A stretch of 64,000 bases of DNA from Combretum micranthum (taxonomy: Eukaryota; Streptophyta; Magnoliopsida; Myrtales; Combretaceae). The stretch is from positions 744,001 through 808,000 of the forward strand of contig JAMXBD010000394.1 of NCBI GenBank assembly GCA_024138025.1. Reading direction: 5' to 3'. Shown in pieces: positions 6,303 to 57,281 of the stretch (the first letter of the stretch is position 1; each line of letters begins with the position of its first letter). The notes under the pieces were generated by a model. The model saw only the letters and a list, made by a program, of their open reading frames with translations. It was not told where the DNA came from and did not search any database. The position numbers and the translations under genes are program-made.

Positions 6303-6400
6303 ATAATCTCGAGGAGGATTGTTCGTATCCCGAAGATTACTACGATTAGTGGAAATCCCGAACGACACATCCATTTCAAGAAATGTGTCATCATGGCTGA
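6303..6400 (+). other. Predicted LTR exon E2 with start codon (type B)
   Basis: Bounded by a pyrimidine-rich acceptor (TTCTTCTTGATTAG) and donor GA/GTGAGT. It contains a short open frame ending YPEDYYD-stop, then ATGGCTGA just before the donor. This arrangement is conserved in the other LTRs of the window; see the findings on E2. Confidence 0.55.
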
Positions 6401-14545: not shown

Positions 14546-16729
14546 CCCATCGTGACATGAATGAATTCAATTTATAGTCGGAGTCGAATAGTCATTAATT
14601 CAATTCTTTTAAGTGACCAACAAGTATTCGCAGACATTCATCATAAGATTCTAGTAAAGCAGTCAATATCTTAACACCCGGTTCCGATATACCTTAAGCT
14701 CCATTTCACATATCAACAATCAACAACATAAATAATTCCCATATACCCCAGCATGCTTATACAATTTCTTTTATCTTTGCCTATAACACTAGTGCCACTA
14801 CATTACAATCACATGCATTAATTGAGAATGGAAGTAAACTCACGGCCATTGGACGCCAAACTTCTTAATAATAATAATCGGGAGGTAGAGTGTCGTCCTG
14901 CTTGGGATCACCTACCAATCGAGAATAATCCTAATGAGATTCTCATCATGTAACTAAATCAAACTATACATCTAGACTAGTTGAATTCGGATTTCTCGCT
15001 ATTTGCGGAAGTTCTGACTTAAAACGGCCATAACTTGGTCATTTTAACTCGGAATTTCGCAAATTTTATATCGATCTCTATCTACTTCAAAAGATCTATC
15101 TATTTCAAGTATTAAATCCAAGTTTTGAAAATAATAGGGTCACGGAACAGTGGGATCAGTTCTGTTCCGCGATTGATCCAATTTCGAAAATGTGCTTCGC
15201 TTTTGATAAGAAATGTTCCTAGTTGGTGATTCATGCATGAATGATTTAGGAATGAACTACTAATGTGTATGCCATGTAATGAACTCAATATGTGCATGGT
15301 CATGATAATTTTTGTAGTAATAAACCCTTATGAACTCCTAAGTGTTGGGGAAATTCTCATAAAGACTAATTCTAAGAAGCTATTTTTCCACATTATACTC
15401 CTTAGGGTTTCTTTGGTTTTTAATCTTGTAATCTACTTATTATTTAACTAAAAATAGGTTCTCAAAGTCTATATTAACCATGGCCTCCATTCATGCATAA
15501 AAATTTCATTTTTCATTTGGTAAACATGCCTTTGAACTAGCTTTTTGTAAAAATCCGAATTTTCTAAATTTCATTTTCTTGCATTTTTTAAGGGAAATCT
15601 TGTCTAATGCATTAAAAATCGGAGCTTCAATGTATACATTATCTAAGGACTTCATTTAGCTTATAAAACATCCATTTTAGACTTAAATACTAAGTGTTTA
15701 TTTAGGCATTACCCAAAATTACGAATTTGACTACACATCTAAAGTCAACATTTTTCCTTCTAACTTCACCTCTTGTTTTCCTTATTTTTATTATGCCTAA
15801 ACTCATCTAAACTCATGAAAATAATTCCTTTAACATGTCTATTACACATACCCTCCATTTTTCTTATGAAATATGAGTTTAAAGTTGATTTTGGGGGCCT
15901 TTAAGGTAGGGTTTCCATTTCATCCGAATTTTCAACTTTTCATATTTAACAAAGCCCTTCCTTTTTCAATGTTCTTGCCTTCTATATGTGGAGATATACT
16001 ATCTAACATCTCTATACATGAACAAGACTTCATTCTTATGATCATCAAAGCATATAAAACAAAATGAACCTATGATCATGCATGTACATGAAGTTGTGAA
16101 TGTCTAAACCTTAGATCTACTACATATGATATATAAAGCATGGATCTCATGGCATGAATGATGAACCAAAATTATTCCTATTTTATGAGTGCTAAAACAT
16201 ATATTTGATGGTCATTTTTATTGGGAATTTCGCACTTGAATTAATGGAGTTAAGCTTTCAGGTCTTTAAAGGAGATATTTTTCAAAGATTGCAAAGACTG
16301 GTCAAAAATGTAAAGTTTGAATCAAGAAGAACTCAACATGACAAGAATAAGCCATGTCCTTCAACCATTACAAGAAAGAAGCAAAATTAAGGGCTAAATA
16401 TCAAGCTTTTGGAAGACATTTATGAGACACGACCTGTCCCAAACCGTGTCAATCTGGAAAATTAACTTTGCAAGGGACATTTCTAGGAAAAGCCGTGTCC
16501 CAAGTCGTGTCAGTGAAGAAAAAAGACCACAGTAAAGGACACGACTCTGAGACAAGCCGTGTCCCCAGTCATGTCGATTTCCATAGTGAAGAAAACAGCC
16601 AGACATTCAAGTGACATGACCTGTCCCCAAACCTGTCGATTTGACAGTTCTTTACTTTTTGAGAAACGACTTTTTTAATGAATAGTAACCCTATTTATTA
16701 AAGAAACGTCTATTGGACATTAAAGGGGT

Positions 16730-16970: not shown

Positions 16971-16979
16971 AAAGATCAT

Positions 16980-18516: not shown

Positions 18517-18830
18517 TAAATGAGAAAATTCATGTTACCACAGAAGAAATGAAGGATGGAGAGGTCGAGCTGAAACAAGAAAATGTAGAAATCGTCTGTT
18601 CTACATTTGATGAAAAATCTAAAAGTAGGGAAGATCATGAGCCTATTGGATATATCATTGATTTTGTGATAGAACCAATTTTCCAATACCCCTCCCCCCA
18701 TGAAAAATTTCTAAAATTTTTGCTGAATCTTGTTGTGCTTAAAAAGAAAACTAGGATGAGAAGTAAATTTCTACTAATTTTGATAAAAACTTGTGTCTGG
18801 GACACATTTGTTTGGGATCCTGGTGGGTGA
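18513..18830 (+). CDS. Unknown ORF, second part (probable frameshift continuation)
   Basis: 105 residues from ATG 18513, overlapping the stop of the previous ORF by 4 bases. The frame is open upstream of this ATG, which supports a frameshift over a separate gene. It is Glu/Lys-rich at the start (MKDGEVELKQENVEIV), then hydrophobic with basic patches (KKKTRMRSK), ending DTFVWDPGG. It is followed after about 55 bp by the GGGAGGCAACCCATG hairpin, as in the partial element at 2-217. Function unknown. Confidence 0.5.
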   Translation: MINEKIHVTTEEMKDGEVELKQENVEIVCSTFDEKSKSREDHEPIGYIIDFVIEPIFQYPSPHEKFLKFLLNLVVLKKKTRMRSKFLLILIKTCVWDTFVWDPGG

Positions 18831-22216: not shown

Positions 22217-25200
22217 ATGAACAACAATATATGTGCAAGATCACTACTTTACAGCATGAACAAGATGAGATCTTAACAAAAACGCATCTAAACATTAGAT
22301 CCATGTCTTGTGATTGCTTGACATTCTTGTTCATGTGTTCCATGCCCTAGCATTAGCTCATTGGGATTTAGTGAGGAAATACACAAGATATGGTCTTGCC
22401 ATTACAAGAACTAGGAAGAACAAGGCTTGAATCAACATACCAAAGGAGGATCTAAGGTAGAAATGGAGGAGTTTTGAGTTGAAAGTGCAAGAGGGAGGGG
22501 AGGGGGGTGCTCGGCACAAAGGGAAAGAAAAGAAGAGAGGTTTTCTCTTTTTCAATTTTGAAACAAGAAGAAAATGAAGAGAGAGAGAAAATTATGTATA
22601 TATATGGAGTGCATTAGGGTTTAGATAATTAAAAAGGAGTAAAATAAATAAATTTGAGAGGGAAATTGGGGGGGGGGGGGGTGGGGGCGGCTCTCTTTGG
22701 GTGTGTGTGTGTTTGAAATTTCAATATTTGTAATTAGTTAATTAAAATGTAATAAATGTGATAATTGTTTAAGAGACAAAATTCATTGGAAAGAAAATTG
22801 AAATGAGTAGTTATAAGGATGTAAGAATAGGGTATGTAGTGTGTAGTGTAGGTTGTACTTGTGAATAGTGACAAGACATCTACTTTACCGGTTGTTCGAA
22901 ACATAGGAAAAGCTATAACTGTAATTTTTATAGCTTGGAAAATTATGAAATTGTATTTTTGGAATCCTTATAAAATTACGGTTCTAATGATATTCCGGAA
23001 CATTTTTCTGAATCCGTGGCTGGGGCACGCTTTTCCGTAATTGGGCTCGGGAAGGCCAGGAATTGAAAAATTCCCGAATTTAAAACTTTCAAAGGTTTGA
23101 AATGTACTTTGGAACAACAATTCAAATTCATTTACTTTCATAATATTTATTTTACTATGAAACCGAAGGAAAGCCGGATTTAGGGTTCCTAGGCTTCATT
23201 CACTAAACTCAACCTGATTGGATTAGGGTTTCGCTTCCAATTCTCGGGGTTTTCTAGCTACTGAGAATTACCGGGGTTTACAGTTCCCAATACTTGATAT
23301 TTTATTTTTCTTGCTTATTATTTATTTCTAGTATTTTCTTATGTTCTTATTACTTTATTTGCTCATGATACTGGCATTTACATAATGTTAATGTCTCAAC
23401 TAATCTAAAAGTAGAATTTCATTTTTATTTAAAGGAACTCAAAACTAGATTTTCGATTATGTAATTCTTCATAAAGATCATGAGTTATTATCAACCACAC
23501 ATAAATAGAGTTTTTCTCAAACGTTTCCTTAAATAACAAAGATGTTTTTACCAAGAAAACTTAAGAAATAGATATTTTCATTATATTATGTTAACCTAAG
23601 TTTTAGTAAAATAATTTGTTAGTTTTCAAAGTTTTCACAAAAAGCTTAAGAATAAACTCTTTTTAACTCCATAACAAAACTAAGAAACAAACTAGTTTTT
23701 AAAAGTTAAGATGAATTCAACCAATAAAATTACAAACCCACTTAGGAAAAATAATGATTTTCAAATTTCTAAAAAGAAGGAACTCATTTTCAAAAGAATA
23801 TAAATAAAAAGTAAGATTAACAATAATGGATTTTACCAATAAAGATTATTCTTTTCGGAAGAAATAAAAAGAACAAATTTTAGAAAACAAAACTTATATT
23901 TTAAATAATAAAGACAAGACTCAAGGACCATTCTAACATACAAATTCATAAAGAGATTTTTCAACAACTTAATATACTTTTAATAAATTTGAATTTAAGT
24001 AAAACTTATAAAATACTAAGGTTAAAGGAAAATTTACTTGTTTTGGAAAAAGGAATGAAGGAAATAAAATAGGAATATACTCATTTATAATGAAAATATA
24101 AAGTTTCTTCCAAATACTTGAAAAGGAATTTATCAAGATAAGTTTTAACACTTTAAAAAGAATTGTTTTATGAAATAAATTGTTGAGACACTACCATTAG
24201 AAATTTTGCATATAAAATGAGTTTATCTATATGCTCAAAGTATTTATCAAATATATGTTCATAATTATATTATATATATATATATTGTTACAAAAGGATT
24301 CTTTTTAAAATGAAGTTGAGTTAGAAATGGATTTGCCAAAGTTTAGAAATAATTCATTTTAAATCTGTACCTGACATTTTCGGAACCCAAATGACCTTAT
24401 ATGACAAAGATAACCTTAGAAATGGATAAATCTTTTCGAATAGGTAGAAAACGGTATATTATATGCGAAATTCTGAGTTAAAATGAGTAAGTTATGGCCA
24501 TTTTAAGTTGAAATTTCCTCTTATACGATTTTACCGCTATTTTAAGAGAAGTTTAGAATCTCTAAGAATAGAAATTCATGAAAGACTTATCCCGGGTATT
24601 TCTTTTGTCTAGGTGACGAAAGATACAAGATTACCCTACCCGAGGATTACTACGACTAAGAAGATCGCAAAATGGACGAGTGAGTTATTCCTCCTAATTT
24701 CATTACCTTGCTTGTGCTTGTAAAGTAGCGGCATTAGTATACTAAGAAAAGATAAAAATAGATATATTTGGGGAATTTGGGATTATGTATGTGTGATTCT
24801 ATGTTTATGTATGAAATGAGAATTAAGAATAATGCAACTTCGAACCGCTTGTTTAATAATTTTGTTTACTTACTTGTATAACTATTTATTGTTTGCTAAA
24901 TTAATTGATCGCCCCTAATAAACCTTAATAAGCATTGGCTTAAGAAAAATAAAACGTTCACGCATAGCATCCATCGAATCACATCTATTTCGGAAGGCTG
25001 CTACTCCTACGCGTAGAGTTGGATTGGTTGTGATCGTGTGGTGCCACAGGCCATGTTCCTTCCTGGAGAATCCAAATCGCTCGGGGAAAGCGACTCTAGG
25101 TTCAGAGCCGAGCCAACCGAACGCTGTGGATGAGGACCTGAGGACTAGCAGTAGAAGGTCGAGGACCTTCAACCCCGATTCCCTAACCTTTGATACGGAG

Positions 25201-25781: not shown

Positions 25782-25967
25782 TCGGGCATTCTTTCATTAC
25801 CTCCTGAGTTACAACCCTGCCTCCTGTGGGTGTATAGATCCCTAATCTTTTATTCATTGCTTCATGTGTTAGGCCTAGTCTTTTGGCTAATGTAGCGTCT
25901 ATAAATGAATGTGTCGCGTCGATGTCAAATAGGGCATACACTGATTGGTCTTTCACTTGTATTGTTC
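25782..25967 (-). pseudogene. Layer-0 gypsy aspartic protease N-terminus
   Basis: The minus strand reads GTIQVKDQSVYALFDIDATH, then SFIDATLAKRLGL. This is the retropepsin active-site region: the usual ALFDSGATHSFI has become DIDA, keeping the catalytic Asp but losing the Gly, so the enzyme would be inactive. The first codon is completed by splicing from 26074 (see the intron). The frame runs leftwards into the LTR inserted at 25781 and resumes at 12039. Confidence 0.88.
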
Positions 25968-26073
25968 CTATTTATCAATTATGCATTACATGTTATTTAT
26001 GACTCATAAAAGTATTTATTGTGAATCTAAAGTGTTCGTGTCTCATACTATAGCTTTAAATATAATAACATAC
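25968..26073 (-). other. Predicted 106-nt spliceosomal intron between gag and protease
   Basis: On the minus strand the sequence is GCAG/GTATGTT at 26073 and GATAAATAG/GAACAAT at 25968. The interior is AT-rich and holds an in-frame TAG. Removing it joins LIAG to GTIQVKDQ (phase 1), restoring the continuous gag-protease sequence expected for this family (xxxGTIxVNxxPxYALFD). Confidence 0.75.
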
Positions 26074-27219: not shown

Positions 27220-30200
27220 TTGGGGTATAAGCTATACTAGCTTAGTGAGTGAAAACTTCCATATCACAATTAAGACAAATCATTCAAGCAAGTGATTATT
27301 CAAGCAAGTGAAATGCATCAAACAAATGGGTTCAACAAACATATGACCATCCGGAAATCATATGTGGATGGACTTGTGCCCTCCATCCCGGGTTAGCAGA
27401 TTAACGAATCCTGCGATACAACGCCGTCTAAGCTCACGGTCAACTGAACAATATTTCGTTTTGTGGATCACGATCAACCAACAATTCGTTTTATGGATCA
27501 CGATTAACCAACAATTCATTTTATGGATCATGATAAACCAACAATTGCTAATGCTCCATCCCCATCGTGATATGAATGGGTTCAATTATATTTGAAGTCC
27601 AATAATCGGTTAACCAGATTCTTTTAGGTGACCAAGCAATATTCGCAGACAATCATTTCTAACTCATCTCTGCACAAGCAATAACTTATCACCCGGCTTC
27701 GATATTCTTTACTTTCAGCTCACACATCAACAGCAAACAATTATAATATCTAACTAACCCCATCATGCATAATCATTCTCTTTTTATCTTTGCTTAGCAA
27801 CTAGTGCAACTATTATTACAATCACAAGCAATAATTGAAATCGGAAGAGATACTCACTCGGCCATGGTACGCCGGTCTCTTAATAACGGTAGTCAGGTGA
27901 TAGGGTATCGTCGTGCTCGGGATCACCTACCAAATAAGAATAGCCTAATCAGAATCTCATCACTTCACTAATTCAAGCTAGGCATCTAAACTACTCAAAA
28001 TCGTGACTCTCGCTATTTGCGGAAGTTCCAACTTAAAACGGCCATAACTTGGTCATTTTAACTTGGAATTTCGCAAATTTTATATCGATTTCTATCTACT
28101 TCGAAAGATCTATCTATTTCTAATATTATTTTCAAGTTTTGAAGACATTAAGGTCACGGAACAGAGGGATCAGATCTGTTCTGTAACGTTTCTATTTCCG
28201 AAAAATTGTTTCGCATTTAGTAAAAATGTTTTTAGTTGATGACTCATGTATAGATGGTATATGAATGAATTCCTAGTATGAATGTCACGTGATGAGCTCA
28301 ATATATGCATGGTCTTGATGATTCTTGATGATGAACTCTTATGAACTCCTAATTATTATAAAACTCCATGATGGTCATTTCAAAAAAATATTCTTTCCAA
28401 CTTTGCATTCCCTAGGGTTTTTAGGATTCTATTCTTGGAATTTACTTGTTATCTAAATAAAAATGAGTCCTTAAAACCTATACTATCCATGACCTTCATT
28501 TATGCATAAAAATCCACATTTTTCACTTGGCAAATATGTTTTCAAACAAGCTTTTTACAAAAATCCGAATTTTGGAAATTTTCTTTTCTTGCATTTTTCC
28601 TATGAGAAAACTTGTTTAATGCACCAAAATTTAAAGCTTTATTATATCTATTATCTAAGGACTTCACTTAACTTATAAAACTTGTAATTTGAGCTTGAAT
28701 ACTAGGTGTTTATGTAGGCATTACTCTAAATTACGAATTTAACAATTTGATCACTAACTCAAGATTTTCCATTCTAACTCCACTACTTGATTTTCATATT
28801 ACTCATGCCTAAACTCATCTAAACTTGTAAAACTCATTCCTTAAAGATACCTATTACATAAACCTTTCATTTTTCATGAAAAATATGAGTTTTAAAGTGG
28901 TTTCAAGAGTTTTTAAAATAGGTCTAAAAAATTATACGAATTTTCCTTTGAACTTTGCTAACAAAAATCATTTCTTTTCAAGTTCTTTGCCTTATTTTCA
29001 TAAATATCTACCAACTAACATGTTTATATATACACAAGGCCAGGCTTTTATGAACATCAATGCATAAAACACAAAATATGCATGTGAACATGAATGAAGA
29101 AAACATGAGTCTCTAAACACTAGATCTACAAACTTATAGTGCATGAACATGAGCTTAATGATACGAACATTAACTTTCCAAGCAAGATCTCTACTTTACA
29201 TGCATGAACATAATATTATTTCAACAATAACTCTTTTAAATACAAGATCTACTTTTTGTGATGGCTTGATATTCTTGTATTAGTATTTTCTTGTCCCTAG
29301 CATATGCTCATTAGGATTTAAAGTGGAAAACACACAAGAAAAGTCTTGCCATTACAAGATTTAGTAGTAATAAACTTAAAAATCATCACCTAAGGAAGGA
29401 TTTAATGAAGAAATGAAGAAGAAAAGAGCTTGTTGTGTGTGTGTAGAATGGGGAGGAGGCTCACGTACAAAGAGGGAGTAGAGAGAGGGTTTTGTGATTT
29501 TTTGACAAATGGAAATGAAATGGAGAGAGAAAGTTAAAGATTATTTATATTAGTGAATTTAGGGTTTGCTTGGAATAGTAAAAGAGATAAAATAATTCAA
29601 TTTGGGGCATAATTGGGGGGTTAATGGCGCCGGCCATATGGGGTGGAAGAGGGAGAGAGAACAAATTTTATTTGAAATTGATATTGTGTAATAAAATGTA
29701 ATAAAAGTGATAATTTAATAGGAGACAAAAATTTCTTGGAAAAGAAAATTTAATTGAGTAGTTGTAAGGATGTAAGAATAGGGTATGGGTAGTGTGTAGT
29801 ATAGGTTGTACTTGTAAATAGTAGACAAGACATCTACTTTACCGGTTGTAAGAAAAACACGAGAAAAAGGCTATAAGTGTAATTTTTATAGCCCGAAAAA
29901 TTATAAAATTGATATTTTTGAAATCCTCACAAAATTACGGTTCTAATGAATATTTCGGAATATTTTTCTGAGTTTGTGGTCCCAGGGCACGTTTTTCCAT
30001 AATTAAGCCCGGGAAGGTCCGGAATTGAAAAATTCCCGAATTTAAAACTTTCTAAGGTTTAAAATACACCTTAAAATAGTAATTCGTATTTATTTACTTT
30101 ATAAAACTTCTTTTATTATGAAACCGAAGGAAAGCCGGATCTAGGGTTTTTAAGCTCCTCTCACTAAGCTTGAACTAAACCGATATAGGGTTTCGTTCTC

Positions 30201-31540: not shown

Positions 31541-33253
31541 ACATGGATCTAGTGTTTAGATGAGCTTATGTTAAGATCTCACCTTGTTCATGCATGTAAA
31601 GTAGTGATCTTGCATATATATTGTTATTCATGCCATGAGATCCATGATTTATGCATCATACTTAGTAGATCTAAAGTTTAGATACCCACATTGTCATTTA
31701 CATGTATGATCATAGAGTTATTTTCATTTTCATGCATTGATGACCACAAAAATGTAGTCTTGATTATGTATAGAGAAGTTAGATGGTGGATATTCATAAT
31801 AGAAGGCAAAAACATTGAAAAAGGAAGGATTTTGTCAAAATGAAATATTGAAAATTCGGATGAAATGGAAACCCTACCTTGAAAACTACCAAAATCACTT
31901 TCAAACTCATATTTCATAAGAAAAATGGAGGTATGTGTAATAGACATGTTGAAGGAATTATTTTCATGAGTTTAGATGAGTTTAGGCATAATAAAAATAA
32001 GGAAAACAAGAGGCGAAGTTAGAAGGAAAAATGTTGACTTTGGATGTGTAGTCAAATTCGTAATTTTGGGTAATACCTAAATAAACACTTAGTATTTAAG
32101 TCTAAAATGGATGTTTTATAAGATAAATGAAGTCCTTGGATAAAGTATACATTGGAGCTTCACTTTTTAATACATTAGACAAGATTTTCCTTAAGAAAAA
32201 TGCAAGAAAATGGAATTTGGAAAATTCGGATTTTTACAAGTAGCTTATTCGAAAACATGTTTACCAAAGGAAAAATGTAAATTTTTATGCATGAATGGAG
32301 GCCATGACTATTATAGACTTTGGGAACTTATTTTTAGATAGAAAACAAGTGGACTACAAGACTAAAGGCCAAAGAAACCCTAAGGAGTATAATGTGGAAA
32401 AATAGTCTACTAGAAATAACCTTTGGAAGATTTTCTAACACTTAGGAGTTCATAAGGGTTTATTACCACAAAAATTATCATGACCATACACATATTGAGT
32501 TCACTACATGGCATACACATTAGTAGTTCATTCCTATATCATTCATGCATGAATCACCAACTAGGAACATTTCTTATTAAAAGCAAAGCACATTTTCGAA
32601 ATTGGATCAACTGCGGAACAGAACTGATCCCACTGTTCCGTGACCTTACTATTTTCAAAACTTAAATTTAATATTAGAACTAGATAGATCTTTCGAAGTA
32701 GATGAAGATCGATATAAAATTTGCGAAATTCCGAGTTAAAATGACCAAGTTATGGCCGTTTTAAGTCGGGACTTCCGCAAATAGCGAGAAATCCGAATTC
32801 AACTAGTCTAGATATATAGTTTGATTTAATTACATGATGAGAATCTCATTAGGACTATTCTTGCTTGGTAGGTGATCCCGAGCAGGACGACACTCTACCT
32901 CCCGACTATATTATTAGGAAGTTGGCGTCCAATGGCCAAGTGAGTTTACTTCCATTCTCAATTAATGCATGTGATTGTAATGTAGTGGCACTAGTGATGT
33001 AGGCAAAGATAAAAGAAATTGTATAAGCATGCTGGGGTATATGGGAATTATTTATGTTGTTGATTGTTGATATGTGAAATGGAGATTAAGGTATATCGAA
33101 ACCGGGTGTTAAGATATTGACTGCTTTACTAGAATCTTATGATGAATGTCTGCGAATACTTGTTGGTCACTTAAAAGAATTGAATTAATGACTATTCGAC
33201 TCCGACTATAAATTGAATTCATTCATGTCACGATGGGGTTGGAGCATTCGCAT

Positions 33254-34522: not shown

Positions 34523-35051
34523 ATATCCTTGCCCTTATTCATAGCAAGTAGGATCCATATGGTACCTTTAGAGCTTCAGGTATCTAAAAAACATCAAGAG
34601 ACCGTTCAATTTGAGACAACCAATCTTCTGCTTCTTCTTGCTTTCTCGACATCCCCTCGAAGTATCAGCTTGATAAATTCAGGTAACATGTTCCTTTGTG
34701 GCCTCAAAGGTAGTGGAGGTGACAACTCACGATCATATCGAGGTAGTCCTTGCACTTTAGCTACTGATTCAACACATTGTTCTTGATTTCTTGGTTCTTC
34801 CATGGGTGGTTGAACCGATGCAACATGTTCCTCGTTTCTTCTAGCTAATGCTTAAGGCATAGGTGGTGCCTCAACAAGTGGTGCTACAAGAGGCACTTGT
34901 CTACCTTGCAACGCTTGTAAGATTAATGTATTCTGTTGTTAAATTGCTTGTAAAATAGTCTCTAAGCGATTAGGTTGTGGGCGGTTCAATATTAGGTGTA
35001 TTCATTTGCACTCTTGCAGGTCTTCCCCTTCTACCTCTCGTTCCCGGCACT
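34523..35051 (-). pseudogene. Layer-0 gypsy gag N-terminal half
   Basis: From 35051 the minus strand reads RVPGTRGRRGRPARVQ, then QNTLILQALQGRQVPLVAPL, EEPRNQEQCVESV and LSPPLPLRPQRNMLPEFIKL. The basic RGRRGRP start and following layout fit Tekay-type chromovirus gag. There is no upstream in-frame ATG before a stop (TAA about 20 codons before), so the start is probably supplied by splicing from the LTR exon at 37769-37762, giving M-S-R-V-P-G. Stops and frameshifts are present downstream. Confidence 0.8.
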
Positions 35052-35442
35052 CTACCATAAATTACATCATAAACAAGGTAAGTCTCATTCGTTGTAGCAA
35101 TCTCTTATTCAAGTTAATTATGCTCAATGTCATGCATGTGTAAATTCATCATAACTTAAAAATACACATAATACTATTCATAACATGAGCATCCTTTATT
35201 TACTAACTTCACTTATATTTACATACACACATGATAACATAGACATATGTACATCAAAACATACTAGTGTTCCATGTTAGTGCCATATGTAAAAAATCAA
35301 AATTGCACTAACTATTACATCTAGCTACGAGTCTATCAAAAAAAAAGATGACCATCATAAGATCATACATCATCAGTCCATCAAAACAAAACATATAGCA
35401 TCACTTCCTCATCAAGTCCCTCTAAGGACTAGGATAAAGAGT

Positions 35443-36230
35443 TCATTTGCCCTTGTCTTGGGCATCTAATTGAGGGTACACATCTGCTTTACTCGAGTCA
35501 TTATCACTCAGCTCCTGTACCATAGTATGCTGTCCAAGCAGGGCAAGACTAAGGTCTGAACCATGAATATGTACTCCCCGTATGGTAGGAACACGCCTAT
35601 CCTCATGCACTAGTACAGCCTCCTCACCACATAAACATCCTCCATGTGACATACCTTTTTAAGTACATACTGGCTAAATGTACACTGTGTATGATCTACA
35701 CCTCTTGCTCCTTGTGGTGCCTGTATAGTATTCCCACTCTTCACTTTCTTCACTTTCTTAGTAATATGCCCCAATTTATCACTGGTAGCATCTCTCTTAG
35801 TTAGTCTCTTTTCCTGCCCTCCAAGTGATATCACTATATCTTGTGTGTGTTTATGTGAAAGTGTATCATAAATGGGTGAACTCACAAGATCTGGCTCCAC
35901 CATAAGTATGATGGTAGGTCGTGCCAACAATACATCTCTTGGAAAATTGCAACTACTGAGGTGGCTCATCATCCATTCATCAATATAAGGATCTGTACTT
36001 CACACTCCGACATGATCTTCTCTAAAATCATGTGCATAGATCCTACCTTGACCAATATCTTCCCATATTCTAAAATCTAGAGGAGCTGGTCTCCTCGAAT
36101 TAGATGATACTATAAATGCTATATTATCAATCTCTAAACCCCCTCCATTCCTTCCAACAAATCTCTCAAATCTATAAATAAACCCATTAGCTGTACCTAG
36201 ATCAGGGTGAGCTCTCTCCATAAAGAACAA
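35443..36230 (-). pseudogene. Unidentified ORF remnants in the layer-0 leader
   Basis: Two long segments in one minus frame (36230-36000, 76 codons; 35972-35610, 120 codons) are separated by a single TGA. A third (35652-35443, 69 codons) is frame-shifted and overlaps the second. Segments read, for example, GLEIDNIAFIVSSNSRRPAP and HITKKVKKVKSGNTIQ. Residue use is protein-like and not low-complexity, and the frame extends further upstream with a few stops (LIDYRRRLRVLVEDLSLAG). I do not recognise it. It lies between PBS and gag, inside the predicted intron, and could be a captured host fragment or an extra retroelement ORF. Confidence 0.4.
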
Positions 36231-36582
36231 CCAGACTTAAAAAGTGGATTCAAGCCCTCTCCATTTACTAAGGATCTACTCCAATGTCTTGGTAATGCCA
36301 GCTAAAGACAGATCTTCAACTAAAACTCTCAATCTTCTTCTGTAATCTATCAATGTCTCTGAATAAACCATGTCAACTACTATCCATTTGATGTGACATG
36401 CAGCTGGGTTGGTCAAAAACACAAATAAAATTTGCATGATCAATAATAATCATACAGATTTTAATGTAGGTTCTTAATTCTACCAAAATCTACCCCTACT
36501 ACTCTTAAATGGGCTCTACAACTACTATTATCTATACCACTTGTATTATTACTCAAATTCATCCTTCTTATACTTGCAACCG

Positions 36583-36595
36583 AGCTTTGATACCA
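36583..36595 (-). promoter_or_regulatory. Primer binding site of layer-0 element, tRNA-Met type
   Basis: The minus strand reads TGGTATCAAAGCT, 8 nt after the LTR end TGACA. The canonical plant initiator-Met PBS is TGGTATCAGAGC, so there is one mismatch. This fixes the 5' end of the element and its orientation. Confidence 0.85.
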
Positions 36596-36603
36596 ACTAA
36601 AAC

Positions 36604-38077
36604 TGTCACGCCCCAAGGGTACCCTAGTAGTAACACATATATTATGATACAATCTAATGACCAGATAGTATCACATACACATGTTATTATTAGATTTACC
36701 TTGGAAAATGACATAAGTTTAACAAAACAAGATCTTTCGGTTGCTTGATAGGAATGATGAATACGAATAACAATACATCACCATAAATACATCTTTCTAA
36801 CTGTTGTCTGAATAATAAAATATTACATACCGTAATATATAATTAAAGTTCCTAAATATTAGAAAAAACATTCTAATATCATCTATTACATATAACTAAG
36901 CAATACTATCCCGACAATTCTTCCAACTTTAGAACCTTATTGGTTTTAAGCTCTTGGAAGCAACAAACCAAGGTGAAATAGTCAACTTGTAAGGATTGTA
37001 GGAGTATGAGCATAAATCATGGGCTTAGTGAATAACTAGAACATATCACATAACAAGCAAGTTATTATCAAACATATGTAATGCATCATTCAAGCATATG
37101 ACAATTATAAGCTTGGACAATCCGGAATCCAAACAGGATGGAGATTTACGCCCTCTTATCGGGGTTGAAGAAAAACCAATCTATGAATCACCTACCTAGG
37201 AAAAACTAAGTACACAGGAAAGCCACAATCCTTATAGCAGTTTTCTCTTTATGTTACTTTAGTCTTAAGCACTTATTTTTTGTTTTAAGCCTTAGAAACT
37301 CCATTAAGTGTTAAACATTTCACAGGATACCATAGGTGGCGTCCTTCATTACCAGTTAGTTCCTATGGAACTAACAGAATAAAGGTAATCTTGTATAGAA
37401 CTAATAGCCTCTTGCCTAGAAAAACCAAGCATTACTAAAGAACTGAAATTCTAACATGTAGTACGCTATCACATAATTATAATGCAATTTATGCAATTGA
37501 TGTTCATTTATTTATGATTCCAATAATTTTTAGTTAGGTTTAAGGTGCTTAAACTTCATTCAGACAATCAACATGCCATACATACAGCAAATTCACAAGT
37601 ATTTCATTATCACTTTTATTTAGTATTGTTTAGCAACCAAGTAATTTAAACAGCAAGCAATGCCCTTAACCCCAAATACAATACGAGTTCATTATTATTA
37701 TTTTTGTTATATAATGCAGCTAAACTACACACAAAAAATGTAATAAGTCTAAGTTACTCACCTGCTCATATTGTTCAATCATAGTAATCGATCAGAAAGT
37801 CCTCAATAGTGTCAAAATTACCCATTGAGATGAAAATATTCATCAATAATACTTATAAATAGAATATTGAATTACTATGAGTGCCCAAATGTCCTATTTT
37901 AATATTTGATATAATTCCTATTGTTTGTATTGGTTTCCTAAGGTGTTGGTTCTATAGAAAAAGGATATTTATTATTTAATATTTAGTTTCATCTAATTTC
38001 TTTTGATTTAAATTATCATTCATTCTTATATCTAAGATAAGCTAAATTAAATTTTTCTATTAGTTTTCTAATCAAGT
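36604..38077 (-). mobile_element. 5' LTR of layer-0 gypsy element (3' portion)
   Basis: Begins, on the plus strand, TGTCACGCCCCAAGGG directly next to the PBS. Visible landmarks in reverse are the E3-like acceptor near 36985, hairpin GATAAGA/TCTCCATC near 37138-37165 with GGGCGTAAA loop, and E2 with a short frame MGNFDTIEDFLIDYYD-stop (about 37822-37775) and ATG 37769-37767 before donor GTGAGT. It is cut at 38077 by the LTR starting at 38078; the rest is beyond the window. Confidence 0.8.
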
Positions 38078-39289
38078 TGTCATGCCCCGAAGGGTATCCT
38101 AAACGTGGTAATCCGCCACATATAATATCAAGACTTAAGAATGACTACCTTAGTCATGCGAAAGTCACGGTATTATATATAAGACGTCTAACACGGTAAT
38201 AGGAAACACTTTGGGAAGTGTGGTCTAAGCAAGTAATAACGAACATACAAGAATCTAAAAATAAAATAGATCATACTATTAACAATTAAAGGTCTAGTAC
38301 ATGATTCTTAGAGGTATACCCCTGCTAAATTCTAAGGATCAAAATAACTAATAGTCTTTACAAAATTTAAATACTACATCAAAAGATTTTGAAGGAATTA
38401 TAGTTTAACCATTTAAGTAGATTTCCTTCAGAAGCTTCCAAAAGAAAACTTACGTGGATAAGTGGAGACCTCGGGTACAAAAACAGGTGTTCTTGTGAAT
38501 GTAAATATCTATAGGGGCGTAAGCTTATAGGCTTAGTGAGTATAATCCTAGTATTTATACTTGAAACAAAATATCAAGCAAGTTTATTAAACAAGCAAAT
38601 GGGATGCAATAAGCACGTGAGCATACAAGACATGATTTTTCGGGAATCATATGTTGAATGAATTACGCCCTTCATTCGAGATTAGGTACTCCAGCCCATT
38701 ACAGCCACTATTTTTTTTAAAACCATTTTTATAGATCTTACCGAATTTTATTCGTCATAAAAAAACATGCAGTTATTATCGGCTTCTACTAGCCATCAAT
38801 TTATGTAGTTTTTACCGGCTCCTACTAGCCATCAATTTATGTAGTTTTTACCGGCTCCTACTCGCCTCATACATAATATATCGGTTATACCTACCACCAC
38901 TATCATATACTTGTCCCACCGATTGTGTAATAGCGAATGCAATGTAACTCAACATATGAAGTGCATGTATCAACTTTTATTTGAGAGCCTAGTCATTATA
39001 TTTCAATTTCTTACAAGTGATCAACCAATTTCAAACACTTCAACGTACTAATAAACATATAATTTATCATAAGCATTTCGTGCCTCGATATACTTAACGT
39101 TCTTTCAACATGTTATCAACACACACATCTTCAATTTTATCTTTCCTTAAGTCTAGTGCAACTAAATTTACAAGCACAAACATAAGCATGAAAAATAAGG
39201 GAAGTAGACTCACTCGGCCATCACGATACTCCCTCAGTCGAAGTAGTCCTCGGGGTAATATACATCCTCCTCCTTGGTTCCTAAACAAA
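38078..39289 (-). mobile_element. Type-B LTR, minus strand, left part (also 58102-59432 and 62933-64000)
   Basis: The left end TGTCATGCCCCGAAGGG abuts the layer-0 LTR; preceding CAAGT (38073-38077) would be the TSD, right copy off-window. In reverse it shows E3 near 38465-38505 (donor GTAAGTTTTC), the hairpin TTGAATGAA/TTCATTC region near 38655-38680, and E2 39214-39280 (EEDVYYPEDYFD-stop, ATG 39221-39219, donor GTGAGT). It is interrupted at 39290-39294 by the 39295-58096 insertion and resumes at 58102 (AAATACC alignment matches other type-B LTRs). Confidence 0.85.
38750..38875 (-). repeat. Short tandem repeats (CCGGCTCCTACTAGCC) in type-B LTR
   Basis: Three units of the type TTATGTAGTTTTTACCGGCT plus CCTACT. 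The same family occurs forward at 6720-6850 in the type-B LTR at 4173-7486. Confidence 0.7.
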
Positions 39290-41623: not shown

Positions 41624-44600
41624 TGTAAACCCCGGCTTTTCAAGTAGCCAAGATAACCCTAGAACCGGAAACTAAAACCCTAAACCGGAATAGCTCAAGT
41701 CTAGAGTGAGAACTAGGAATCCTAATTCCGGCTTTTCCTCGGTTTCCAATTAAGAAAATTTTATAAGAAAATTTAATTTTGAATATAGTTCTTGATTATA
41801 TTTCAAACCAAGAAAATATCAGATTTTTAGAAAATTTCAATTCCGGTCATCCCGAGACCCATTATAGAAAAACGTGCCCCGGAACTAGAATTTCAAAAAT
41901 TTACTTATGAGTACTCATTTGAATCGAAATAAAATAAGGATTTAAAAATATTTTTCATAATTTTCCGGCTTATGAAAAATACAGTTATAGCCTTTTTATT
42001 CGTATTTCCTTACTACCGGAAATTAAATTGTCTTGTCTACTATTCCTCACTATTCACAAATACCACCTATACTACCTATTTGTACACTCTATATTTCAAC
42101 TCTTACCATCACTCAATCATCTCCCTTCTAAATAACTTTTTGTCTCTTAAAAATCAAGACAATTTATGACAAATGGTACACAATTAAAATAAAAGGCAAA
42201 TCCCCACCCCCCCCCCCCTTGATGAATAGTGGCCGGCGTGATGGCTCCCCTCACAAGCTCCAATTTGCAATTTTTTTAAAGTTATTTTATCCCATTTTAA
42301 CCTAATTCCATTTTATATAAAGCTACTTTTCTCTCTCTCTCTCTCTTCATTCTTTTACTTTTCAAGTTTTACAAAGTGAAAAGCTCTCAAAATCCTTCCC
42401 CATTTCCCTCCTTTGCTGTGAGCTAAAGTTCCCACCCCCCCCCCCCCCCCCCCCCTTATACACACACACACAAACACACACTTTCCATTTCCTCTTTTCA
42501 TCTTCTATTTTTCTTCAAGTAAGTGAACTTTTACTCCTTCCACTCATAGATCTTTGTTATGGCTAAGTGATTCTTGAATATTTCCAACCAAAGGACCCCA
42601 TGAGCTCTTGCTAGGGACAAGGAAATATCACAACAAGAATACCGAACCATTACAAAGTAGATCTAACTTTTAAAGGAGCTTTCATGCCAAAAGCTTTATG
42701 TTTCTCCATCAAAAAGTGTTTTGAACAAAAGACCTTTTATAAAATGTAGTTTTTATGTTTTCAAAACTCATTTAAGCATTTGATATAGTAGATCTATCAT
42801 TTTACTACTCATATTCATGTAGGCATTTAAGATCTCATCATTATTTTGTGTTTATGTGCATTAATAGCCTTTAATGCTTTTGTCCTTAGTAAATAACCTT
42901 CCTAGTATATAGATCTATAGGTAAATGAGTCCATAAAGTCAAAAAGGAAAGCACTTTGCAAGAAGTGAACTTATGTAAATTCGCATGACTTTAGAACCCT
43001 AGGTTAAAAACACTTTTATCAACTTCTAAACATATATTTTACAAGAGAAATGGAGCCTATAGGTAATAGATAATGTTTGGTAATATCTTTTATGAGTCTA
43101 AATGAGTTTTACTAAAAAAAAAATTGAAAACAAGAGATGAAGTCTAACAAAAGTTTGGAGTTAAAAGTCTTAAAAACCAAATTCGTAATAATGGATAGAT
43201 GGCTAGAAAACACTATTTTTCCAACTTCAAAAATGGTATTTTCTTAAATAAATAAAGTCCTTAAGGTATAGGTAAAATAAATACTCAAAGTTCTAAGTAT
43301 AAAATGCATTTTTCTTAAAAGAATCAACTTGGAAAATGAAGTTTTCTAAATTCGGATTTTTGGGACTACCCTAGTATAAGACCCACTTAAAAGTTTACAA
43401 ATGAATGTTTTATTAAAGAAATAAAGGCCTTAGGATATAACTAATATAAGGGTCAAAATTTCTTTAAACAAAATGAAGTTTTTCTAAAGAAAATCCTTAT
43501 AACAAGTAAGTATGACCAAGTGTAGTAAACTTACTTGTCAAACAAGAGTATGAAATGATTTTCTAGGAAAAAGTTTAGTTAAATTCCTTAAGTCTAAAAA
43601 TCTATAAGACCTTAGATACCCAAGAGTTCATATCATGACATTCATAATAGGGAAACTCATTTCCATGGCATTTAGTTTCATTTTGCACTTAGGAATCTCA
43701 AGTGCATTCATGAAAACCGCATTTTCGGAATCAATATAGCCGTTGTACAGATCTGATCCCTCAATTCCGAGGCTTAGATATTTTCAAAACTTGATTTAAA
43801 CTTCATATTTAGAAAGCTCTTCCGAAGTAGATAGAAATCGATATAAAATTTGCGAAATTCCGACTTAAAACGACCAAGTTATGGCCATTTTAAATCGGGA
43901 CTTCGAAAATGACGCGATTTCGATTTCACTAAGTTTTCTTAGAGTTTTAGTTTCCTAAGATGGTAGAATACTTATTAGGGTATTTCTTATTGAATAGGTG
44001 AACCCGTGGACGTTGACTCTTTGCCTCCGAATTATTATTACTAGAAGAAAGGCGAACCAATGGCGGAATGAGTTTTTCTTCCCGATTCATTTATTGTATG
44101 TGCTTGTAAAGTAGTGCACTAGAATGTAGGCCAAATGAATGGAATATGAATGATGGGGAATAATGGGAAATTATATGTTGATGATGATGTGAGAACTCAA
44201 ATTAAGAATATCGAAACTGGTGATAAATTTTGGTTGTGTACTTAGCTACGATGGATTGTTTGAGAAATTGTTTGATCGCCTAAGTAAAATGGCTTGATCA
44301 ACTACTCGAACTAATGCCAAATTTGACATATGCATATCACAAGGGGAGGAGCATTAGCATTTGTAGGTTAATCGTGATCCATAAACGATATCAAAATCGT
44401 AGGTTAATCGTGATCCACAAATGATATCGAATAATCGTAGGTTAATCGTGATCCACAAATGATATCGAATAATCGTAAGTTAACCATGAACCAAAAACGG
44501 CATATTGATAGTACTGCAGTAGTCGTTAATCTGCTAACCCGGGATGGAGGGTGCAATTCCATCCACATATGATTTCCAGTTGGTCATATGTATGTTGAAC

Positions 44601-45107: not shown

Positions 45108-45811
45108 ATCTATACATGAATCATCAACTAGGAACATTTTTATCAAATGCGAAACAATTTTTCGGAATCGGAAAAGTTACAGAACAGATCTGATCCCACT
45201 GTTTGTGACCTTAATATTTTCAAAACTTGAAAATAATACTAGAAATAGATAGATCTTTCGAAGTAGATAGAGATCGATATAAAATTTGCGAAATTCCGAG
45301 TTAAAATGACCAAGTTATGGCCGTTTTAAGTTGGAGCTTTCGCAAATAGGGAGAATTTCGATTTTGTGTAGCTTAGATACATAGCTTGAATTAGTTTAGT
45401 GATGAGATTCTTATTAGGTTGTTCTTAATTGGTAGGTGATCCCGAGCAAGACGATACATTACCACCCTACTACTATTACTAAAAGACCGGCGAACCATGG
45501 CCGAGTGAGTACTACTTCCACTCTCAATTGTTGCTTGTGATTGTATTGATAGTGGCATTAGTTGTTTAGGCAAAGATAAAACTTGATATGCATGATGGGG
45601 TATATGGGAATTATATACTTGTCTGCTATTGATATGTGAAGTTGAACTTAAGGAATATCGAAACTGGGTGTTAAGCTGCTGCTTGTTTAGTTAGAGTTTA
45701 CATTGATTGTCTGTGACTAATTGTTGGACACCTAAAAGAATTGGAATAATCCATATTTGACCTTAATTATAATTGGACTCATGCATATCACAATAGGATG
45801 GAGCATTAGCA

Positions 45812-52200: not shown

Positions 52201-55200
52201 ATTCGTGACTTTGGATGATGCTCATGAAAACACCTATTATCCAAGTTCAAAATAAAAGTTTTATGTGTTAAATGAAGTCCTTAGGTAGTGGATATAGTAA
52301 AGCCTTAAATTTTTATGCATTGAACAAGTTTTTCTAAAAGGAATCATTCAAAAAGTGGATTTTCTAAAATTCGGATTTTTGAGTAAATCCTATTTGAAAA
52401 CATATTTGCAAAGTGTAAAATACAAATTTTTGTATAAAAAAGAAGTCCTTAGTGGTTATGTATGAATGAGCCTTAATTTTCTAAGTATCAAATGATTTTT
52501 ACTTAAAGGAATCATTCAAAAACTAATTTTTGTAAAATTCGGATTTTGGAATCAACCCTACTTGAAAACATGTTTATAAAGTGTAAAATGGAAATTTTTA
52601 TGTAGAAATGAAGGTCATAAGTAATATATATAATGAAGACTCAATTTTAACAAAAATAATTATATTTTCTTAAGTAATAAATCCAAAACAAATGGAAATG
52701 ATCAAAGTTAGAAAAATAGATTTTTCATAAGTAGTTGTTATTATGGTCTTGCAAAATAAAAAGTTATAAAATTTCCTTTTAGCAAAAATCATAAGGTCAT
52801 GCATACATTAAGCTCATCTCATGTCATTCGTGTTAGGAAATCACTCATATTGCATGTATAGCTAATCTATATAGTAGGAACATTTCAAACATTTACAAAA
52901 CTATTTTTCGAAATTGGAAATTGCTATTGATCATAACTGATCGGACCTTTTCGAAGCTTCAAATTTTTCAAAACTTAAATATAATATTAGAAATAGATAG
53001 ATATTTCTAAGTAGATAGAAATCGATATATAATTTGCGAGATTCCGAGTTAAAATGACCAAGTTATAGCCGTTTTAAGTTGGAATTCCCGCCTAGGACGA
53101 GAATTACGAATTTAATAGTTAGTATAAAATCGTTTGGATTAGTTTGAGTTGAAATACTTATTAGAGTATTTCTTCCTTTTTAGGTGATCCCAAAATCGAC
53201 GATTCCCTACCACCGGATTACTTTTACTAAGAGACTAGTGATCCAATGGCCGAGTGAGTTTTCTCCTTATTTTGTTACCTTGTTTATGCTTGTAGCTAGT
53301 CGCATTAGAAGTAGGAACAAGATAAAAAAATCGATATGAATGGGGATGGGATATATGATGAGGTTGTGATGAATGTATGCCAAAGAATACTTAAGCATAT
53401 CAAAACCACAATTTGATTGGATAACTGCACTATTCATATTATTTCTGCTATATGTATGATATTGGTTGATCACTCTAAAGAATGTATGAATATTTTGATC
53501 TAAGCAAAAATTAAATTGGTCATGCATTGCATCGGACATATTGCATGTAATGCCCTAACTATTGGCATTACAACGCCACGTGTTCTCTCTTAATAGAACA
53601 CGCTAAGACTATAATTTCCACAAACAACATGAATATCACCTGTATAACTCACAAGGTATATATAAAAATGTAGTCCTCAATAAAATAAATCATATGATAA
53701 GAATATAATCCCCATAATCAACAAACTAGACATTGTTGACATAACTGCAGGTCAACAAGTCAAATCATGCCCTAAAACTGTCACCACCTGAAAAACTCCA
53801 AGTACAACTTAAAATTTCAATGAACAGAATATAAATCAGACATAAAAGTCTTCTTTGATTCATCCTATATCATCTATGACTATACAACTAGTCATCAGCA
53901 GGGTAGTCAGGACTCCTAACGCCATCCCATCCTTATAGATGATATCAAAACCGAAAGATCATAAATCACATTATCATCCTGCAACCTGAAATATAACAGA
54001 ATGAGCACGCGAAGCCCAGTACGATAATATCCAATCCAGTTCAAGCAAAGTTATGCACAAACAACATATATATGAATAAATGCAACTAAACTAAATGCAT
54101 ACAATAGTTTATTATATATTTTAGTCCAGCAAAACAACACAGTTCATAATCTAGTATACATAAATCCTGAACTCAGAGTAACTCAGACTCTGCTATAAAA
54201 ACATCCAACTGATTTGAAAATAGGTAATATATATACATATATGGATGAGTGGGTACTCCCAAACATCCCAATTCCTAAACACCTAAAATTCTACCGGAAA
54301 TCATTTCTTAGCACGAGTCCACTCGGGACAACCTCACACTAAGATCATCAAGGTGCCTCACCAGTATCACTGTTTCCAGGTCTCTATTGTCAAAGCCAAC
54401 CACAACTAGACAGACAATTATTAAGCTAAATATTTATTAAGTTCATTATGCAATTCTATTCCTACATCCATTCACAAAAAAATTCTAATTTACAAGCACA
54501 TACATCAAACAATGGATTGGTCGTACCTTTCTAAATTTTAAGAATCCAAATCAAATCCTTAGAATTTGATACCAACAACACAAAGTCAACCCAAACTCCA
54601 CCAATTCCTATATCCACATCAACAACAGTTTCACAATTCCAAATGTCTGTTACAATATATATTATATATATATATATATCAATAGACATTATCGCAATAT
54701 CTTAACATAAAACAACCTGTCTAAACTAACCTGATATAGAACTTCTCAAACTCGACCTATACTGATCAATAACCCCAAGCACTTCCGATAATATCAAAGA
54801 ACGAGATTTCAAATCCTTAAATCAGAATCTTCACCAAAACCCTATAAAACATATCATATGATCAATATCGTAATATCAAGGCTGCCCAATTTCGTATAAA
54901 AAGGATTCAAAACTTATATTACTGATATGGAATGTATAATACTTGTTTCTTCTCTTCCTATTCTGATCAAAACACAAGCTAGGGTTTATTCTTCAAAATC
55001 CTTCATGAAATATTCATCCAAACCCTAAGAGACTTATACAAATTTATATATATCCAAATGAGATGGTTAAGATCACTTACTTTTAATTAATAATCCCCTC
55101 CGAATGATTCCCAGACTCATATCTCCAAAAATGCTTCAAAACTCTCTTATACGAAGGAGAAATGACAATAAAAAAAAAATCTATCGAAAATGATTTTCGC

Positions 55201-56501
55201 GTCTCGTATTTATAGAAATTTGGTTATACGCTAGCTTACACCATATGTGGCCAGATCTACACGAACACCGGCAACGTCCGTTGAGGCTTTGATTCCCAGA
55301 ATTCAAATCGTCCCTTCATATGCCGGCAAATCTTGGACCTACGCGGCGCTTTGATGCCGATGTTGAGAAGAAACCCTATGAACGTTGGCAACTTTCCTCC
55401 CAACGTTAAGAAAAACGCTACTGTTCCCATCCTACGCCGTCTGTACGCCGGCGGCGTAGATTCTCCAGGAGACGGCGTACAGTCTATTACAGAGTAAGCT
55501 GACAATTTAAGTCCTGGCCGGCGGCGTTCTTCACCAGAGATGCCGGCCTTTATTGCAGAAATTAAGAAAATTGATCCAATTGATGCCAATCTTGTTCTAA
55601 CACGAAATTGATCAAACTTAACCTTATTTTTAACATCAACATAAAGGAATATTGGAATCTAGTAGCTTGTGTACACTTATCACTTAAAATTATTTTGTAT
55701 TATACATTGCATTTGGCAGCATGCTACTCCTGCGCAGGTCGATCGGTATGGTCCGTTGAAGACTCGTTTAGACAATGAGACCGGTGCCAAAGCTCATTCA
55801 TGGGAACTAAGGCGCATCGGGGATGCATTCCATGTGTGAGCCTAGCCGAGTCGAGTGCTATGAGCCGAGGGCTTGGGGACTAGCAGCGGTCGTGTAGACT
55901 TCAATACTATCCCTAACCTAAGATACGGAGGGCGTAAATCCATTCTGTGTGTGGGTTTCGGACACCCATACATAATTGTTTGCTCATGTGTTTGTTCATG
56001 CATAACATATGGTTGATTATAACTTGTTTGCTGTGGTACGGAATTAAGGGAATTCTCACTAAGTTAGTGTAGCTTATACCCCAATAGTTGTTTAAATGAG
56101 CAGGTTATCTCAAGAATGCTAAGTGGGGACCGAGATGGTTGGAGCCGAGAATGACTTTGGGATTCCGGCAAGAAATGAGAATGCTTAAAGTTATCAGCTA
56201 GGTTTTTATGTTTTGCCTTGTAATAGTATATGTAGAGAAGTCTATGGATGAATGTAATTGAAGTTTAATGATTTATATTTTAAAGCATAGTGAGTTGTAT
56301 CTGAAGTATAGTAAATTGTATTTCCTTTACATTGTTACCAAGTGTATCAATATAAAATATATCTCTCCAATGTGTCTCCTCTATGTGTTAGACGCCTTGT
56401 GCATAGTATGGAAGCCTTCGCATGACTGAGGCGGTCATTCTTAGGCTTTAATATTGTGTACGATGGATTGCCACGTTTAGGGTACCCTTCGAGGCGTAAC
56501 A
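49296..56501 (+). mobile_element. 5' LTR of a type-C gypsy element, interrupted by 53546-55706
   Basis: Starts TGTAAGTTCTGGAAAATTTC and ends CGAGGCGTAACA at 56501, followed by a PBS. Net length is about 5.04 kb, longer than types A and B, partly from a duplicated TTTTCGGGTTATAAAA segment (about 50015-50060 and 50315-50360). It has donor TATAG/GTAAAG near 51018, E2 53184-53253 (DPKIDDSLPPDYFY-stop, ATG 53246-53248, donor GTGAGTTT 53254), a hairpin ACGGA/TCCAT near 55925-55943, and an acceptor GAGCAG near 56102. The flank before it is ATTAC; no right TSD remains because the 3' half of the element is deleted. Confidence 0.82.
53546..55706 (-). mobile_element. Solo LTR of a separate family (TSD TTGCA)
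   Basis: Plus-strand ends TGTAATGCCC and ATTATACA, 2161 bp, with TTGCA at 53541-53545 and 55707-55711. A TATA box on the minus strand (TATAAATACG, about 55214-55205) and the ...GGGCATTACA end give minus orientation. Its U3 (55255-55570) is GC-rich with strong palindromes: AACGTTGG/CCAACGTT (55381-55407) and CTGTACGCCG/CGGCGTACAG (55441-55482). A GTAAGT donor in reverse near 55078 and acceptor TATATTTCAG near 53985 suggest that it too has a spliced leader. The 110-codon minus ORF at 55257-55589 follows the GC-rich U3 and is probably not a gene. Confidence 0.85.
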
Positions 56502-56508
56502 GTTTAGT

Positions 56509-56520
56509 TGGTATCAGAGC
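56509..56520 (+). promoter_or_regulatory. Primer binding site of type-C gypsy element, tRNA-Met type
   Basis: TGGTATCAGAGC, 7 nt after the LTR end. Exact match to the usual plant initiator tRNA-Met primer site. Confidence 0.93.
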
Positions 56521-57281
56521 GACAAGGTTTTGGGAATTAGGTGGGAAGACTTTAAGAGAATAGAATGTTAAGATACGATCTTAGGAATAGATAGGTAAGT
56601 GTTAGATGACCCTTAGGTAAAGAAGAACTAGATTTAGCTCAATGACCTTTAAGGTATGACTTTTGATTGTTAAGGATTCAAATTTATCTTGGAGACTTCT
56701 GGAGAACATAGAAATAGATACATAAGGAAGGAAGATTGAAAATATTTGATGGGACGATCGGATCTATTCTAGCAACTGAAAAATATAGGGATAAGTGACC
56801 TTACCCGACTTTGGTTTAAGCCAATAATAGAAATGATAGATGCCCCCAAAAGATTTAGCAAATGGATATTGTTTTTGTTTGGAAGAAGCCAATCTCCTAG
56901 AAATAGCAATAGATCTTTCGTTAAGCATTAGGGACAAATAACTTTTGAGTAAAAAGAACAAAGATGTTTTGAAAATGTAAACCGATGTTGTGGTTTATCA
57001 TCTAGTTCATGAATTAATTCCAATGTATGTTTTGCATCATTTCTTTGAACTTTTGTAATGGAAGACTTACATCTTCTCTTGATTTCATGTATTTCGTATT
57101 GGATATTATGAAGTTCCTCTTATTGATTTTTATTTCAGTGGAATTTCAATATTTCTTATATATGATTTTATTTGCGTATTTCCGTGTTCTGTATTTTCGA
57201 TAAGCTTCTTAAAGTCACTTTTAACGCCTTAAGACGTAATAAAAGATTTAGAGTTTTCACCTGAGTTTAATAAAATTGTAG
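56521..57281 (+). mobile_element. Leader of type-C gypsy element (no gene seen)
   Basis: AT-rich leader between PBS and gag. It has no ORF of note and ends in a plausible acceptor TTTAATAAAATTGTAG at 57281. It is the downstream part of the predicted intron starting at 53254. Confidence 0.6.

Follow-up and report, generated by a model that had tools for sequence, protein, structure and literature searches.

Where does translation of gag begin in an LTR retrotransposon whose gag frame has no ATG upstream? The question is raised by a minus-strand element, here called element A, in the window, by which we mean the whole 64-kb stretch of DNA that was analysed. Its gag frame is closed by a stop 18 codons before the junction codon with no ATG between, much as the earlier note on this DNA had described it. 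That note proposed that ATGAGCAG, in the 5' LTR and directly before a donor at 37761, is joined in frame to gag by an acceptor at 35052, and these coordinates proved exact; the acceptor context is ...GGTAG/A at 35053/35052, and the join to ATGAGCAG is in frame (Table 1).

We consider it likely, judging from the genomic sequence, that LTR retrotransposons of this kind express Gag from a spliced RNA in which an LTR exon is joined in frame to gag. Transcription would start in the LTR, and the first coding exon would end with the ATG and five further bases, followed by the donor. On splicing, this exon end (ATGNNNNN) would be joined to gag, the intron taking out the rest of the LTR, the primer binding site (PBS) and the leader, so that the ATG comes to stand in frame with the gag exon; the acceptor AG would correspond to codon positions 1 and 2 of the junction codon. 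The gag mRNA is probably spliced from the LTR exon in this way and would lose the PBS, and the translated and the genomic RNA would therefore differ, the unspliced RNA retaining the PBS and serving as genome. Because the donor contains a stop, unspliced RNA would read ATG NNN NNG TGA from the LTR start, that is three codons and then the TGA inside GTGAGT, and no Gag would arise from that start. The transcription start, the splicing itself, the use of the LTR ATG and the division of roles between the RNAs are what we infer from the arrangement of the DNA.

Table 1. Features of the window and acceptors of the element families; a slash marks a putative splice junction
Feature	Position	Strand	Remark
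Element A, LTR exon end ATGAGCAG with proposed gag start codon 37769-37767	37762..37769	-	last exon base 37762
Element A, candidate splice donor GTGAGT	37756..37761	-	GT = 37761-37760
Element A, candidate splice acceptor AG (...AATTTATGGTAG)	35052..35053	-	next base A = 35051
Element A, proposed intron	35052..37761	-	2710 nt, 97 ATG triplets, crosses PBS
Element A, 5' LTR part with start codon and donor, end ...GGGGCGTGACA	36604..38077	-	LTR end adjoins PBS
Element A, PBS TGGTATCAAAGC	36584..36595	-	within proposed intron
Element A, gag start, decayed	34523..35051	-	up to nested insertion
Element A, in-frame internal ATG, rival start	35003..35005	-	codon 16 after junction codon
Element A, first part of protease	25782..25971	-	RVP_2 profile 24-86; truncated at 25781 through a + strand LTR
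Remains of extra leader ORF between PBS and gag	35446-36236	-	inside proposed intron; also delimited as 35613..36236; longer open in L017
Homologous LTR site ATGGCTGA/GTGAGT	6393..6406	+	
Homologous LTR site ATGGCGA/GTAAGT	10249..10261	+	7-nt exon end, phase broken
Homologous LTR site ATGGCC/GTGAGT	14838..14849	-	6-nt exon end, phase broken
Homologous LTR site ATGGACGA/GTGAGT	24672..24685	+	
Homologous LTR site ATGGCCGA/GTGAGT	27852..27865	-	
Homologous LTR site ATGGCCAA/GTGAGT	32932..32945	+	
Homologous LTR site ATGGCCGA/GTGAGT	39208..39221	-	
Homologous LTR site ATGGCGGA/ATGAGT	44060..44073	+	donor G lost
Homologous LTR site ATGGCCGA/GTGAGT	45497..45510	+	
Homologous LTR site ATGGCATC/GTGAGT	60503..60516	-	
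El.2, LTR exon end ATGGCCGA, then GTGAGT	53246..53253	+	
El.2, PBS TGGTATCAGAGC	56509..56520	+	El.2 LTR end at 56501
El.2, candidate acceptor AG (...AAAATTGTAG)	57280..57281	+	gag exon from 57282, phase matches
Insertion inside El.2 LTR, TGTA...TACA	53546..55706	.	2161 bp, 5-bp duplication TTGCA
GTTTAAG family, acceptor ...AARCAG/ACG			five copies (L059-L063)
GTTTAG family, acceptor ...TTGTAG/GAG			seven copies (L065-L071), one TTTTAG
GATTTAAG family, acceptor ...ACTAG/AATG			four copies (L073-L076)
Acceptor ...AAACAG/CCG			one copy (L057)

Element A is decayed. Its gag piece carries stops and frame changes and is interrupted by a nested insertion at about 34522-26783 (flanks GATAT/AATAT), and its protease is split again; a match to RVP_2 84-131 at 12086-11892 on the minus strand may be the continuation of this protease. 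An RT_RNaseH_2 match at 4032-3766, also on the minus strand, presumably belongs to the same element. The features of an LTR retrotransposon that were found comprise paired LTRs (one pair compared), a PBS next to the 5' LTR, and coding pieces, namely RVP_2 in element A, RT_RNaseH_2 and relatives of Gag; the type would be Ty3/gypsy rather than another kind of LTR element. The RNase H piece of the window has matches in records of Tanacetum, Mikania, Apium and Punica (among the best 120 of 612), which suggest a flowering plant as host, and a search of viral contigs and prokaryote genomes returned no similar element, eight candidate contigs having proved on inspection to be without one. The leader of element A holds the remains of an extra open reading frame, which in a further copy of the family (L017, 1425-2464) is open over 221 and 188 amino acids in two overlapping frames; a Pfam search with this frame gave no match. 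In a separate Rfam search nothing reached the gathering threshold. The PBS found in these elements, TGGTATCAGAGC, is one that may match the initiator Met-tRNA. It is separated from the LTR end by a short spacer that varies by family (GTTTAAG, GTTTAG, GATTTAAG, GAATTAAG, GTTTTGGATT) and could be used to sort the families.

The upstream side of the 5' LTR of element A is truncated by another LTR ending at 38078. As its 3' LTR lies outside the window, the question whether position 37761 belongs to an LTR was taken to the rest of the genome. A 23-mer from the element A ATG has 310 exact copies in its own genome (1.865 Gb, 5442 contigs), and the reversed control has none in the same genome. Among 100 places listed, six same-strand pairs of the 23-mer are 9.6-10.8 kb apart. 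For one of these pairs, on contig C8, the two stretches (L012 and L013) are 97.6% identical over 2684 nt with the site included; the end of L012 adjoins a PBS and that of L013 other DNA, so that a PBS follows L012 only. The site is therefore present in both LTRs of one copy of this family, which bears out that the proposed start codon lies inside the LTR. A PBS follows 8 of the 40 stretches chosen by the exact 23-mer, and these 40 stretches were left out of the counts of donor conservation given below.

Within the window, 12 LTR positions were defined by BLAST and a MAFFT alignment. BLAST linked the element A site with none of the other LTRs, and its placement rests on the MAFFT alignment and on the distance to the LTR end; this distance ranges over 1043-1166 nt across eight LTRs measured and amounts to 1166 nt in element A. 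The ATG is present at all 12 sites, the donor GT at 11, and both at 8-nt spacing at nine. The pattern ATG-N5-GTGAGT occurs nine times in the 64 kb on both strands, always among the 12 LTR sites and at one LTR position, vs a mean of 0.33 and a maximum of 2 in 100 dinucleotide shuffles. At the 10 full-length sites the ATG and TGAGT are invariant and the five bases after the ATG variable. In conservation, the segment that spans ATG and donor comes second of 409 when all 12 rows are used, sixth of 376 when nine are used, and fourth of 441 for the five rows that diverge most. This result is tempered by a block shortly behind the donor (+35 to +58, counted from the ATG), whose conservation in the 12 LTR sites equals that of the site itself; it is perhaps a poly(A) or splicing signal.

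The second element of the window with a candidate acceptor, El.2, belongs to the GTTTAG family by its leader and gag, and its acceptor site is also found in L065-L071. As its donor, ATGAGCAGGTTATC at 56096 was dropped, because the homologous site is found at 53246 once the 2161-bp insertion in its LTR is accounted for; the main part of this insertion (query 53358-55640) has no copy elsewhere in the window. Elsewhere in the window, at 16159-22217, direct repeats of 1.8 kb that are 98.8% identical surround about 2.5 kb; this appears to be a young element inserted into an older LTR.

For the rest of the genome, the combination of LTR end and PBS was found 1954 times, with no occurrence in the control. 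From 100 listed places of this kind, 40 5' LTRs were chosen by spacer type with the donor region unseen, 20 as long stretches and 20 as short slices of which 301 nt were read; copies of one family among them are not independent. Thirty-two of the 40 have ATG-N5-GTRAG, and two more (L095 and L096) have ATGGA/GTGAGT, in which the exon end is 3 nt shorter and the phase unchanged. The strict site is present in 18 of the long stretches, at -1032 to -1150, and in 14 of the short slices. Six LTRs lack the pair of ATG and donor in the part read: L072 has kept the donor and lost the ATG, L058 is without the site, and L078, L088, L089 and L091 have none within the 301 nt read. Sorted by spacer, 10 of 13 types have the strict site and two more the shorter one, and the type GTTTAAAGTGG has no site in 2 copies. 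The exon ends found are ATGGCCGA, ATGGCTGA, ATGGCCAA, ATGGTCGA, ATGGGCAG, ATGGCCAG, ATGAGCAG, ATGGACAG, ATGGGAAG and ATGGA; their codons vary among LTRs and the phase is constant.

The other half of the arrangement is the gag acceptor. In 17 of the 20 long stretches an acceptor AG occupies codon positions 1-2 and so matches the phase of the LTR exon, and none was found in the remaining three (L058, L064 and L072); the acceptors were chosen per family with the frame in view, not blind, and other AGs of the right phase lie nearby in element A and El.2. Agreement of phase is seen five times, in element A and in four groups (GTTTAAG, GTTTAG, GATTTAAG and L057). In the family of element A the acceptor is intact in element A and in six of eight other fetched copies, and L017 and L037 have small deletions there. 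The putative introns of the 17 stretches are 2216-2908 nt long and contain 51-86 ATGs; given these numbers, and the 97 of element A, it is improbable that scanning ribosomes would arrive at gag on unspliced RNA. The recurrence of the ATG, its spacing, the donor, the phase and the acceptors is a property of the DNA itself. The proposal of the earlier note, a spliced gag mRNA, gains support, the splicing itself being deduced: the LTR-encoded ATG, the donor and a gag acceptor of matching phase recur in several families, so that the case does not depend on a single decayed copy. Every count was taken from genomic copies, of which many are decayed, and shows features that the active ancestors of the various families shared.

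The protein database contains seven relatives of Gag, five of which reach the junction, four of these five coming from contigs of 607-1677 bases, with no contig given for the fifth. All five have an Arg just before the conserved part. Joining AG/N would yield that Arg, and three of the five have no Met there (the junction was placed by eye). A search with the decayed Gag piece of the window gave no match.

It could also be that splicing does join the LTR donor with the gag region while Gag starts at an internal ATG, in which case the intron would merely shorten the leader and the LTR ATG would be incidental. In-frame ATGs are indeed found behind the junction codon: at codon 1 in all four GATTTAAG copies (L073-L076), at codon 11 in all seven GTTTAG copies (L065-L071), at codon 9 in L057, where it lies behind a stop at 6, and at codon 16 in element A. 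In the family of element A, seven of nine aligned rows have an ATG triplet four codons after the junction codon, which in L018, L020 and L040 is in frame behind an undamaged acceptor. In addition, the 185 nt before the LTR ATG contain ATGs in 11 of the 12 window LTRs (32 in total, three in element A), so that the LTR ATG often has others ahead of it. It likewise speaks against the LTR start that the gag part ahead of the internal Met differs between families. Against such a start it must be held that the position of the internal ATG differs by family, and hence that none is common to all families. Over the 80 codons that follow the junction codon, the five GTTTAAG copies (L059-L063) have no ATG in common: the first in-frame ATG is codon 96 in L059, beyond a stop at 82, codon 22 in L062 and codon 82 in L063, and L060 and L061 have none. 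Moreover, the LTR ATG and the phase are kept in L095 and L096 despite the 3-nt change in exon length. A conserved internal gag ATG, which the earlier note had named as an observation that would speak against it, is therefore found within some families and in no form common to all; an internal gag start is possible in some families, and as a general explanation we regard it as unlikely.

Two further proposals leave gag out of the splicing. The donor might mainly recruit U1 snRNP to block the use of the poly(A) site in the 5' LTR, or boost expression, without being joined to gag. The major splice donor of foamy viruses, which lies in R and precedes the poly(A) signal, is described as acting in the former way (PMC3694450), and the conserved block at +35 to +58 would suit such a role; the proposal predicts neither a conserved ATG, nor its spacing, nor gag acceptors of matching phase, and we think that it is quite improbable. 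The motif might also be no donor at all, being instead a mini upstream ORF (ATG NNN NNG TGA) that controls translation, as GTGAGT always yields an in-frame TGA with an exon end of 8 or 5 nt. The GT that follows this TGA is unchanged at all 10 full-length sites of the window and is not needed by an upstream ORF, the acceptors are left unexplained, and the rice tungro virus RTBV illustrates that both roles can coexist (PMC5902531), so that an upstream ORF in place of a donor appears very improbable. That the whole arrangement is due to chance or to an artefact of one decayed copy, which the decay of element A might suggest, was rejected on the basis of the shuffles and of the sample of other LTRs; with nine sites vs 0.33, 310 exact copies of the 23-mer and 32 of 40 other LTRs, its probability is negligible.

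Returning to the proposed spliced gag mRNA with its start in the LTR, some further signals in and around the LTR can be added. A TATA-like motif near -218 is present in 7 of 11 LTRs and not in element A. Nine of 12 LTRs, element A again not among them, have an acceptor-like TAGG behind a T-rich stretch at -62 to -65, counted from the ATG; a further intron inside the LTR that uses it is possible, and a scan of 11 LTRs gave no upstream donor common to them. A genomic search that covered three families gave no spliced LTR-gag junction, although for the GTTTAAG family, one of the three, the genome contains 255 copies of the unspliced acceptor. Missing spliced retrocopies fit an RNA that lacks the PBS and cannot be copied, and would fit an absence of splicing as well.

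In yeast Ty1 the start of Gag lies inside the LTR and no intron is known, and in the Drosophila elements ZAM and Beagle gag is read from unspliced RNA. The env mRNA of ZAM and Beagle resembles the arrangement proposed here in that a short peptide-coding exon upstream of gag starts the spliced ORF, and differs from it in that the spliced product is Env (PMC12992720). The closest mode known from the accounts consulted is that of P4 of RTBV (Tungrovirus), in which a leader mini-ORF with a splice donor is fused to a distant ORF by splicing and the unspliced RNA is the template of reverse transcription (PMC5902531). A putative leader exon with start codon and donor, and an in-frame candidate acceptor at an ORF, is likewise found in the DNA of the elements studied here; RTBV, however, is a pararetrovirus, the fused ORF is ORF IV and not gag, and its unspliced RNA is also the messenger for the coat protein and the reverse transcriptase (PMC5902531). 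Foamy viruses likewise have a strong donor inside the LTR, in R, but the passages on this donor mention no start codon at it, pol expression relies on a spliced RNA, and poly(A) use is under the control of the donor (PMC3694450).

Splicing as such is not foreign to LTR elements. BARE1, copia, CRR, Ogre and EVADE are described as tuning Gag or Pol by splicing (PMC3735527, PMC12786077, PMC6317226, PMC7730604), with the splicing of BARE1 treated in PMC3735527, where Ogre and CRR are mentioned, and the sunflower elements Tyran and Varan yield short gag isoforms by splicing (PMC7730604), in a study whose expressed set contained no Tekay elements. In contrast to the intron proposed here, those described for BARE1, EVADE, Ogre and CRR are placed inside coding domains or between them and do not lead from the LTR to gag. 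According to a 2025 review, introns are generally missing from plant LTR elements; Ogre and EVADE are singled out as notable exceptions, and BARE1 is also named (PMC12786077). Diaspora comes near in its predicted LTR donors, its acceptors around the gag start and its long leader, but these are prediction only, and in 2005 its authors wrote that an intron upstream of gag was unreported in any LTR retroelement (PMC1142308). No earlier report of a gag start in the LTR that is joined by splicing was found among the open-licence papers listed, which agrees with the earlier note, whose author did not know the arrangement from Tekay-type chromoviruses.

How one transcript is divided between translation and packaging in LTR elements is an open question, and a gag mRNA from which the PBS is removed would, if true, offer a simple answer to it. 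It is somewhat more probable than the opposite that a group of abundant families makes Gag only from spliced RNA whose intron crosses the PBS, so that each transcript would be either messenger or genome, with the TGA of the donor silencing the start in the unspliced form and an extra ORF lying within the intron of the family of element A. Such an arrangement, if true, would also explain why gag annotations may be missing their starts, and it would account for the long leaders of these elements.
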